From positions 1-11,721 of the forward strand of contig CAIJMQ010000117.1 in the NCBI GenBank assembly GCA_903821905.1: a DNA stretch of 11,721 nucleotides, written 5' to 3'. The notes under the pieces were generated by a model. That model saw only the letters and a list, made by a program, of their open reading frames with translations. It did no database searches and was not told where the DNA came from. The DNA is from an uncultured bacterium. Its GTDB lineage: Bacteria > CAIJMQ01. Positions 313 through 11,050 of the stretch are shown here, in pieces (the stretch's first letter is position 1; each line of letters opens with the position of its first letter). A program made the translations under genes and the position numbers.

Positions 313-2673
313 ATGATAAAATACAATAAAATGCTAAAAATAGAGAAACGGTTATCTCTAATTGACATCTTTACTGTCTTAGAGCGTCCATTTCAACTTG
401 AACAGAAATATAATTTTAACAATCGTTCTTGTGAACCTTCATTTCATTATTACATAAACCTATGGTTGGATAAAACTTTAGGAATGCTCCAGTCACAACT
501 CTCATTGAAACGGTTAAGAAAACTGAAAAAGATTTTTGAAGATTATGATTCGCAAACCGTCGATACCCGACGGAAAACATTTAAAACAGGCAAAAAGCTA
601 TTAAATGAAGCCAAAACCTTTGCATTTATAGAAAGGGATATCCAGTACATTAAAGGCGTCGGGCCTAAAAGAGCTACCTCTCTTGAAAAGTTAGAGATTA
701 ATAAGGTCCGAGACTTATTAATGCATTTCCCTCATCGGTACGAAGACCGTTCAGAGTTCACCAAAATTTCACAAATCAATTCAGGAGATGATGTAACCAT
801 AAGGGGAGAAATAAGAGCAAGAGATGATGTTTTTACTTCCAGAAGAAAACGAATAACAAAAGCAATTGTTGACGACGGAAGCGACAGAATTGTTTGCGTC
901 TGGTTCAATCAGCCATACATGAAAAAACTTCTTCCTATAGGCAAAGAAATTATTTTGTCAGGCAAGGTTACTGGATTTGGCGAAAAACAAATAGTACATC
1001 CTGTTTTTGAAATGGTGGAAAAGAATGACCCGATACACACCGGAAGAATTGTGCCTATGTATCCTTTAACCAGCAAAATAGGGATGCGTTACTTACGGTC
1101 TTTAGTTGATAGAGTGCTTAAAGAATCAGAGGGTTTTCTTGCAGAGTATTTGCCTGAAAATTTAATCAGCACAAGGGAGTTAATGTATTTTGAAGAAGCC
1201 ATAAGAAAAATCCATTTCCCCGAAAATATGGAAGAAAAAGAAAAAGCAAGGACAAGATTTATATATGAAGAGTTTTTATTCCTGCAGATTGGTCTGTTGA
1301 TTATGAGAAATATGAAGAAAGTGGATAAAAAGACCGAATTTAAAAGTGAAGGCGATTTGATAGAAAGATTAGAAGAAGTCCTCCCATTTTCTTTGACGGA
1401 TTCCCAGAAAAAAGTATTAAACAAAATAAAAGAAGACATGACTTCGTCTCACCGTATGATGAGATTACTACACGGCGAAGTAGGTTCAGGTAAAACAGTG
1501 ATTGCTCTGGGAGCAATACTTCTTGCAAAAAACAGCGGTTATCAATCTGCCATAATGGCTCCAACAGCAATACTTGCTGAACAACATTATCTTACACTTC
1601 AGAAGTTTGCTCTGCCTTTGGGAATGGAAATAGGACTTATCATCTCCGGACAAAAAGAAAGTGAACGGAATGACATTCTTAAAAGATTAAAAGAAGGGAG
1701 TATTGATGTTTTAATAGGAACACATGCACTCTTGGAGAAAAATGTTGACTTTAAAAAATTGGGGCTTGCAGTTATAGACGAAGAGCATAAATTCGGCGTC
1801 TTACAAAGAGCACATTTCTTTGAAACGCTAAACAAGCAAACAGAAATTTTAGTAATGAGCGCAACCCCTATACCGCGGTCATTAGCTTTGGCTCTATATG
1901 GTGACATGGACATATCAACTCTTAATGAATTACCTCCGGGTAGAGCCGAAATTTCAACTTTCTGGATAGAAGAAAAAGAGAAAGATAATGTCTATAATTT
2001 TATAAAGGAAGAAGTAAAGAAAAGTAGGCAAGCCTTCATTGTAACGCCGCTAATTGAAGAATCCGAGAAATTAGAAGTAGATTCTGCTACTGAAATTTTT
2101 GAATCTCTGAAAGAGAATGTTTTCCCATCACATAAACTTGCCCTTTTACACGGAAAAATGAAGAAGAATGAGCAACAAGCAATAATGGAAGAATTTCGCA
2201 ATCAAAAAACGGATATTCTAGTAGCAACATCTTTGGTAGAAGTCGGCATAGATATACCTTCTGCAACGGTTATGGTTATCCTTAATGCTGAAAGATTCGG
2301 GCTCGCACAACTTCATCAACTTCGGGGCAGAATAGGAAGAGGTGAACATAAATCCTACTGTATTCTTGTTTCTACTCCCAAGACCGAAGAAGGCAAAAAA
2401 CGACTTGAAGCAATGGTTTCCACAAAGGACGGATTCGAGATTGCAGAAGAAGACTTGGAAATACGCGGGCCGGGGGAACTTCTCGGCATTAAACAACATG
2501 GTTTCCCTGGAATGAAATTAGGCAACATACTGAAAGACTTAAAACTTCTTGAACAAGCCCGGGAAGATGCAGAATCACTTTTAAAAGAAAATCCAACTTT
2601 AGGGAATTACAGTATGCTGGGAGAAATTTTATGCGAGAAATTCCCGTATATAAAGAAATTACTTATCAAATAA
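313..2673 (+). CDS. recG: ATP-dependent DNA helicase RecG
   Basis: Monomeric superfamily 2 helicase that reverses stalled replication forks and branch-migrates Holliday junctions. The 786 residues include an N-terminal extension of about 105 residues, as in the long Thermotoga-type RecG (E. coli RecG is about 690). A helix-hairpin-helix-like YIKGVGPKRA segment (112-121) opens the wedge/OB domain (about 110-235), which contains HFPHRYEDR (138-146). Helicase motifs follow: Walker A GEVGSGKT (388-395), Walker B DEEH (489-492; many RecGs have DEQH), motif III SATPIPR (516-522), motif V ATSLVEVGIDIP (638-649), and motif VI QLRGRIGRG (669-677). The preceding ERFGLAQLHQ is the RecG translocation-type segment, and the RGPGELLG region closes the protein. 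No Shine-Dalgarno precedes the ATG at 313. An alternative in-frame ATG lies at 331, and TATGAT at 312-317 resembles a -10 box, so the true start may be downstream. It converges with the HAD gene, with 29 nt between stops and no convincing terminator. Identity is secure; the start is uncertain. Confidence 0.97.
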   Translation: MIKYNKMLKIEKRLSLIDIFTVLERPFQLEQKYNFNNRSCEPSFHYYINLWLDKTLGMLQSQLSLKRLRKLKKIFEDYDSQTVDTRRKTFKTGKKLLNEAKTFAFIERDIQYIKGVGPKRATSLEKLEINKVRDLLMHFPHRYEDRSEFTKISQINSGDDVTIRGEIRARDDVFTSRRKRITKAIVDDGSDRIVCVWFNQPYMKKLLPIGKEIILSGKVTGFGEKQIVHPVFEMVEKNDPIHTGRIVPMYPLTSKIGMRYLRSLVDRVLKESEGFLAEYLPENLISTRELMYFEEAIRKIHFPENMEEKEKARTRFIYEEFLFLQIGLLIMRNMKKVDKKTEFKSEGDLIERLEEVLPFSLTDSQKKVLNKIKEDMTSSHRMMRLLHGEVGSGKTVIALGAILLAKNSGYQSAIMAPTAILAEQHYLTLQKFALPLGMEIGLIISGQKESERNDILKRLKEGSIDVLIGTHALLEKNVDFKKLGLAVIDEEHKFGVLQRAHFFETLNKQTEILVMSATPIPRSLALALYGDMDISTLNELPPGRAEISTFWIEEKEKDNVYNFIKEEVKKSRQAFIVTPLIEESEKLEVDSATEIFESLKENVFPSHKLALLHGKMKKNEQQAIMEEFRNQKTDILVATSLVEVGIDIPSATVMVILNAERFGLAQLHQLRGRIGRGEHKSYCILVSTPKTEEGKKRLEAMVSTKDGFEIAEEDLEIRGPGELLGIKQHGFPGMKLGNILKDLKLLEQAREDAESLLKENPTLGNYSMLGEILCEKFPYIKKLLIK

Positions 2674-2702: not shown

Positions 2703-3299
2703 TTATTCTTTCAAAAGGAGAAACAGTTCTTTTTTAAACTGCTCTGAATTTTTGAAGAGAATTGTATTTATGCCTATATCCTGAGCCGCTTTTACATTTT
2801 CTTCCTTATCATCGACAAAAACCACTTCCTCTGGTTTTACTCCTAATTTTTTTAAGGTTATTTCATAAATCTTTCTATCAGGTTTGATTACCCCCTCTAT
2901 GCAAGAGAAAACTTTTACATCAAAGAATCCATACTTTTTTTCATGGAAATAATCCAGCATTGGGACTTCGGTATTTGATAAAAGAGCGATTTTGTACCCC
3001 TTACCCTTTAAAGAAGAAATGATTGAAAGAACATCGCTTTTTTCTGAATATACAGATTTAAACGCTTCGCTTAATAATGAAGGAATGGACGGTTTGGGAA
3101 CTTTCAACTTAAGACAAACACCATCCCAGAAATTATCTTCTGTAATTAGCCCTCTGGAAAAATCTGAATAAAATCTTATTACAATCTTCTTAAGTTTTTC
3201 TTCTGATACTTTAAGATATTTAGAGCAATATTTTATAAATCCTGGGACAGGATCGTCTATTAAAACTCCGCCCTAGTCAAAAATAATTGCTTTAATCAT
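2703..3299 (-). pseudogene. HAD-superfamily (subfamily IA) hydrolase interrupted by an in-frame TAG at codon 9
   Basis: Read from the ATG at 3299-3297, the frame gives MIKAIIFD, then TAG at 3275-3273, then GGVLIDD and an uninterrupted run to a TAA, 198 codon positions in all. This is a complete HAD phosphatase-like protein. Motif I is FD-x-GGVL with nucleophile Asp8 directly before the stop. An alpha-helical cap covers about residues 15-80. Motif II is LLSNT (Ser108), motif III is GVIKPD (Lys139), and motif IV is VFVDDKEEN (Asp163/Asp164). Residue 9 in relatives is usually Phe, Leu or Trp; TGG to TAG or TTG to TAG is a single-base change. Internal initiation (for example TTG at about 3107) would give a product lacking the nucleophile, so the natural alternatives are a recent nonsense mutation, a sequencing error, or stop-codon suppression. 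The rest of the frame is intact, which argues that any loss is recent. The gene follows the EIIA-like gene by 15 nt in the same frame, with no Shine-Dalgarno. Substrate unknown. Confidence 0.75.
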
Positions 3300-3314: not shown

Positions 3315-4007
3315 CTATTTTAAACCTAAACGTGTTCTCTCTGTGAGTAAAATAATTTTCCTTAGCTCTTCAATATTTCTTGCCTTAGACCATTTCCAAT
3401 CAAACTCCTTGTCTTGTGCAATCTGAGCAATAGCTGCAAGAGCTTTGAGATGGAAATTACGTTCATCCCTCGTGCCTATAAGAATAAACACTCTGGTTAC
3501 AGGAGAAGATTCCTCATTGAAAATTATACCTTTGTTACATCTTGCCAAAACTATATCAAAGATTTTTTTGCCCGGGACTATAAGGTGAGGGATAGCCAAT
3601 CCTGGAATAATAACTGTAGATGACTCTCTTTCCCTTACCCATAAAAGTCTACAAATTCTATTATGTTCTATATTGAGTCTTTTACTCAAAACCTTCGCTA
3701 CCTTATCAAAAAACTCAGTAAGTGTAATACTTTCTTCAAAATCCAGAATCGGACAGGTCTGTATCAATTTATCAAACCTATCCAAAACAACCGTATCCTT
3801 CTCTTTTATTATCCGCCTTAAATCTCTTCTTTGTATCCCTTTTGCTAGACGGCGGGGAAGAAGCCGTTGAATAATACGGATAAGTCTGGATTCTTTGATT
3901 GATTGGTGGCGTATAAAAACAAAATAAAATATTAATCCAGCCAGGATTATTAAAAGAATACCAACAGGAAAACGGGTTAAATATTCTAAATTAAAGAAGT
4001 CACACAT
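3315..4007 (-). CDS. Membrane-anchored PTS EIIA-like (fructose/mannitol-type) domain protein
   Basis: 230 residues. One transmembrane segment lies at about 13-32 (FPVGILLIILAGLIFYFVF). It is followed by a strongly basic linker (about 33-75, including RRLAKGIQRRDLRR), which predicts a cytoplasmic C-terminus. Residues about 91-225 form a PTS EIIA type 2 domain: the active-site stretch is IPGLAIPHLIVPG with His141, the expected phospho-accepting histidine, and the second conserved histidine sits in NFHLKALAAIAQI (His186). In sugar PTS this domain passes phosphate from HPr to EIIB. Similar domains are also found fused to cation antiporters or acting in regulation. No EIIB, EIIC, HPr or EI gene is visible here, so a regulatory or transporter-modulating role is as likely as sugar uptake. 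It lies 18 nt after lon, with an AT-rich gap and no Shine-Dalgarno, and 15 nt before the HAD gene. The stop is TAG. The fold assignment is good; the function is unknown. Confidence 0.85.
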   Translation of the reverse strand: MCDFFNLEYLTRFPVGILLIILAGLIFYFVFIRHQSIKESRLIRIIQRLLPRRLAKGIQRRDLRRIIKEKDTVVLDRFDKLIQTCPILDFEESITLTEFFDKVAKVLSKRLNIEHNRICRLLWVRERESSTVIIPGLAIPHLIVPGKKIFDIVLARCNKGIIFNEESSPVTRVFILIGTRDERNFHLKALAAIAQIAQDKEFDWKWSKARNIEELRKIILLTERTRLGLK

Positions 4008-10791: not shown

Positions 10792-10879
10792 GGAGAGATG
10801 GCTGAGCGGCTTAAAGCGTCCGATTCGAAATCGGATTTCCCGTAAGGGAACGGGGGTTCAAATCCCTCTCTCTCCGCCA
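10792..10879 (+). tRNA. tRNA-Ser(CGA)
   Basis: Class II tRNA, 88 nt including an encoded CCA. The acceptor GGAGAGA pairs with TCTCTCC, with discriminator G as expected for serine. The anticodon stem TCCGA/TCGGA encloses the loop TTCGAAA, giving anticodon CGA for codon UCG. The long variable arm TTCCC-GTAA-GGGAA is a perfect 5-bp hairpin, and the T arm has loop TTCAAAT. First gene of a three-tRNA cluster, 5 nt before tRNA-Arg. Confidence 0.97.
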
Positions 10880-10884
10880 AATTT

Positions 10885-10957
10885 GCCCCGATAGCTTAGT
10901 TGGATAGAGCGCTTCCCTGCGGAGGAAGTGGTGGCCGTTCGAATCGGCCTCGGGGCA
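10885..10957 (+). tRNA. tRNA-Arg(GCG)
   Basis: 73 nt without an encoded CCA (the sequence runs into ACTC). The acceptor GCCCCGA pairs with TCGGGGC, with discriminator A. The D arm holds TTGGA, giving A20, an arginine identity base. The anticodon stem CTTCC/GGAAG encloses CTGCGGA, so the anticodon is GCG (C35 is an Arg identity base) and reads CGC and CGU. The T arm GGCCG/CGGCC has loop TTCGAAT. Most bacteria instead use an ACG gene edited to ICG for these codons. The fold is complete, so the gene looks functional; the CCA must be added after transcription, unlike its two neighbours. Confidence 0.95.
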
Positions 10958-10961
10958 CTCT

Positions 10962-11050
10962 GGAGGGATGGCTGAGCGGTCTAAAGCGGCGGTCTTGAAA
11001 ACCGTTGTCCCTTTTTGGGACCGTGGGTTCGAATCCTACTCCCTCCGCCA
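10962..11050 (+). tRNA. tRNA-Ser(UGA)
   Basis: Class II tRNA, 89 nt including an encoded CCA. The acceptor GGAGGGA pairs with TCCCTCC, with discriminator G. The anticodon stem GCGGT/ACCGT encloses CTTGAAA, giving anticodon UGA for UCA and probably other UCN codons. The variable arm GTCCC-TTTTT-GGGAC is a clean 5-bp hairpin, and the T loop is TTCGAAT. It starts 4 nt after tRNA-Arg, so the three are surely co-transcribed. It resembles the first serine tRNA closely in the acceptor and D arms, suggesting duplication and anticodon divergence. Confidence 0.97.

Follow-up and report, generated by a model that had tools for sequence, protein, structure and literature searches.

A HAD-IA hydrolase gene interrupted by a single TAG

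The window, that is, the whole stretch of 11,721 nucleotides that was analyzed, comes from a draft metagenome-assembled genome (MAG) of 1.30 Mb in 121 contigs that is 84% complete. On its minus strand, at positions 2703 to 3299, it carries a gene for a HAD-IA hydrolase that is interrupted by a single in-frame TAG, an identification based on the sequence, on profile matches and on orthologs. The gene adjoins recG (313 to 2673, plus strand), an adjacency that is conserved in relatives, and upstream of it lies an EIIA/PTS-like gene (3315 to 4007, minus strand), which was named by eye and has a normal TAG end at 3315-3317.

Read on the minus strand from position 3299, the HAD gene begins ATG ATT AAA GCA ATT ATT TTT GAC TAG GGC GGA GTT, which translates as MIKAIIFD, the TAG (3275-3273, codon 9) and GGVLIDD, and it continues as an open frame of 189 codons (2703 to 3272) that ends with a TAA at 2705-2703. 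Given the base composition, an open run of this length would arise by chance with a probability of ~4e-6. An earlier note had placed a TAG directly after the catalytic Asp and had described the codons that follow it as preserving HAD motifs II, III and IV, and both statements were confirmed: motif II is LLSNTE, motif III is represented by the Lys in VIKPD and motif IV is FVDD. The catalytic residues of motifs I to IV thus all lie within the frame, with the TAG cutting motif I, and there was no further stop and no frameshift in the frame after it. The second Asp of the canonical DxD of motif I is a Gly in this frame, and since the relatives of the frame also have the Gly, DxGGV is a trait of the family and not a sign of decay.

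The assignment to the HAD superfamily is supported by the match to PF00702, which scored 76 bits for the frame read across the stop and 64 bits when the first nine codons were left out (cut-off 26.4), and the match to TIGR01509 (HAD-IA variant 3) scored 53-62 bits (cut-off 29.4). The best subfamily was TIGR02247, which reached 104.7 bits when the frame was read across the stop and so fell below its cut-off of 125.4, followed by the YihX glucose-1-phosphatase (PRK09456) at 60-65 bits, below its equivalog cut-off of 295; YihX was also the best match among solved structures. Because the scores for TIGR02247 and PRK09456 fall under their cut-offs, the substrate was left without assignment. The gene resembles HAD-IA variant 3 hydrolases such as Escherichia coli YihX in its whole-protein profile match with the stop read through, in the presence of motifs II to IV and in the DxGG motif I of its relatives, and it differs from them in having an in-frame stop after the nucleophile.

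A restart of translation downstream of the TAG was considered as a source of active enzyme and rejected. The first ATG, GTG or TTG past the TAG is a TTG that is too far into the gene and would give a product of 134 amino acids lacking motif I, and so, as the earlier note had anticipated, an enzyme without its nucleophile.

Orthologs and selective constraint

Intact orthologs of the HAD gene, at 63-64% identity, were identified in G001 and G002, which belong to the same family as the genome of the window, and the window shares with both of them the gene order pepP, efp, accB, accC, Asp23/AmaP-like, lon, HAD, recG. Both orthologs have a Trp at the position of the TAG, which bears out the earlier suggestion that Trp often occupies the site, and the Trp codon in each is one transition away from TAG. 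Among more distant relatives in public genomes the residue at the site varies (Trp, Met, Leu, Ile, Tyr, Cys, Phe, Val and Ser), and no stop was found there in any relative whose motif I was read. G003 (81% complete) and the genomes G004-G006, which are of the same class, yielded no clear ortholog.

The frame beyond the TAG carries the marks of purifying selection. Across 182 aligned codons after the stop, the differences from G001 and G002 were 0.27, 0.15 and 0.51-0.52 at codon positions 1, 2 and 3, respectively, a pattern that matches that of the neighboring Asp23-like gene; dN was ~0.23 and dS was saturated, with a dN/dS of ~0.1. In addition, the HAD protein of the window was about as distant from outgroups as the intact orthologs were, with no relative-rate excess. 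Based on the number of codons at risk, the lack of a further stop limits neutral divergence since the event to ~0.11 changes per site or less. An old pseudogene in decay would be compatible with a stop at codon 9 that precedes almost the whole protein, but given the 189 intact codons with their motifs kept, the constraint and the relative rate, we rejected it as most improbable. The lack of a second lesion, the constraint and the bound of ~0.11 per site together led us to conclude that the stop is either recent or not real.

Isolated stops in the assemblies

In order to place the TAG against a background, stops inside ortholog alignments were sought in a sample of 606 kb of the genome of the window and 751 kb of G002, and other stop hits were set aside because inspection by eye suggested that the alignments had extended into antisense frames or into the non-coding region at the 5′ end. 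Internal stops were found in 3 of 204 alignments for the window's assembly (two TAG and one TGA) and, in the reverse comparison, in 1 of 200 (TAA); these numbers are small and the difference between them is not meaningful. An excess specific to TAG was considered and rejected, as the window's assembly also has a TGA and G002 has a TAA. Since TAG, TGA and TAA were all found internally, isolated stops are a background feature of these assemblies, regardless of whether they arose by error or by recent mutation.

The other instances were as follows. In the window's assembly, an in-frame TGA occurs in a phosphomannomutase/phosphoglucomutase-like gene (G000:C26, L173, position 15743, plus strand) that shares 86% identity with its intact ortholog in G002, where the site is occupied by a Gly. 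On the same contig (position 3273, minus strand), a trigger-factor-like gene ends in TAG, and similarity to the C-terminal tail of the G002 ortholog extends over the 30 codons past it. In G002, a TAA lies inside a WrbA/flavodoxin-like gene (G002:C11, L203, position 5449, minus strand).

TAG as a terminator in this genome

The intact frame past the TAG and the second TAG ahead of a conserved trigger-factor tail could be taken to indicate that TAG is read through or recoded in this organism, to give a full-length enzyme with a residue inserted at codon 9. Against this, release factor RF1, with its GGQ motif, is present at full length in the genome, as is RF2. None of the 34 tRNAs detected (with an Rfam model, and typed with ARAGORN) had the anticodon CUA in this 84% complete genome, and the best match in the genome for pyrrolysyl-tRNA synthetase (PylS) reached 22 bits against a cut-off of 178.15. 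TAG is also a regular terminator: four of the nine genes in the window close with it (EIIA-like, lon, accB and pepP), as do 37 genes in a sample of 189 that have orthologs. Neither the loss of RF1 nor a rarity of TAG as a terminator, by which recoding would be recognized, was therefore observed. Moreover, programmed read-through that is conserved would keep the stop in orthologs, whereas G001 and G002 have Trp, and another internal stop in the assembly is a TGA.

The locus shares with amber recoding (pyrrolysine or TAG reassignment) an in-frame TAG within a conserved reading frame, and is unlike it in the presence of RF1, the lack of a detected CUA tRNA, the PylS score below the cut-off, the regular use of TAG as a terminator and the Trp of relatives. 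Recoding was thus rejected on the tRNA set, the release factors, the PylS score and the usage of stop codons, and reassignment or suppression of TAG is not supported, with the reservation that ~16% of the genome is missing and, since it is only 84% complete, a suppressor tRNA could sit in the missing part. In the body of papers searched, nothing was found on read-through in bacterial pseudogenes. We judge read-through at this site to be very unlikely. At a similarly low level of probability, one might speculate that a lineage-specific, low-level amber read-through, via a suppressor tRNA missing from the draft genome, sets the amount of the phosphatase, and perhaps also extends trigger factor in this organism.

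Origin of the TAG

The reading that we favor, and consider very probable on the comparisons above, is that a single-base nonsense change affects an ordinary HAD gene, as either a consensus error or a recent null allele. Specifically, one base change would have turned codon 9 of an ordinary, syntenic HAD-IA phosphatase-like gene into a terminator. Should the base be real, RF1 would be expected to stop translation after eight residues in the cell, and as the TAG is not followed by a start codon close to the N-terminus, the strain would have no active enzyme and would carry what is presumably a very recent null allele. Otherwise, the TAG would be an error in the consensus of a fragmented MAG, and the gene itself would be normal. 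A counterpoint to this explanation is that efficient read-through would give the same open frame and the same constraint. Of the three options that the earlier note had raised, a recent nonsense mutation and an assembly error both stand, and read-through found no support either in the aligned relatives, with their sense codon, or in the search for a suppressor tRNA.

The first of these two, a consensus or assembly error in which codon 9 is a sense codon in the organism and the enzyme is normal, has in our estimation about an even chance of being correct. Consistent with an error are the fragmentation and incompleteness of the MAG, the lack of any other lesion in a frame under normal constraint, and the report of Cooley and Wright that spurious internal stops arise in bacterial assemblies from low coverage and reads of low quality (PMC11017572). 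The rate of internal stops in the relative's assembly is similarly low, and those stops could be real pseudogenes. We nevertheless lean slightly toward an error because a second isolated stop occurs in the same assembly in a strongly conserved gene, the sugar-phosphate mutase described above.

The other, a genuine nonsense mutation of very recent date that would abolish a dispensable phosphatase, whether it occurs within the population or has become fixed in the lineage, is a serious possibility that falls a little short of an even chance. A single transition would turn the Trp codon found in the nearest relatives into TAG, and the divergence permitted by the lack of further stops leaves room for it. 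The HAD gene may be dispensable, given that no clear ortholog was found in G003 or G004-G006. Conversely, the window copy shows no accelerated change and no second lesion.

In either case the locus presents an isolated stop in an ordinary phosphatase gene in a draft metagenome assembly. It resembles the single-stop pseudogenes, spurious or recent, of draft assemblies (PMC11017572) in combining a lone internal stop, within a gene that is intact in other respects, with intact orthologs and a draft assembly. Its importance beyond annotation is little: the HAD gene would be missed or called a pseudogene here although it is intact in close relatives. The locus also serves as an example that an isolated internal stop in a MAG needs a read check before recoding is proposed.

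Other features of the window

The EIIA/PTS-like gene, which in the window lies between lon and the HAD gene, is not at the equivalent position in G001 and G002. Its closest matches, at other loci, are in G004 and G005, of the same class (60-61%), and in G001 and G002, of the same family (41%). The matches in G005, G001 and G002 sit inside much longer open frames (613-624 amino acids), and therefore the gene in the window may be a detached soluble domain. Elsewhere in the window, three tRNA genes, for Ser(CGA), Arg(GCG) and Ser(TGA), form a tight cluster at positions 10792-11050 on the plus strand.
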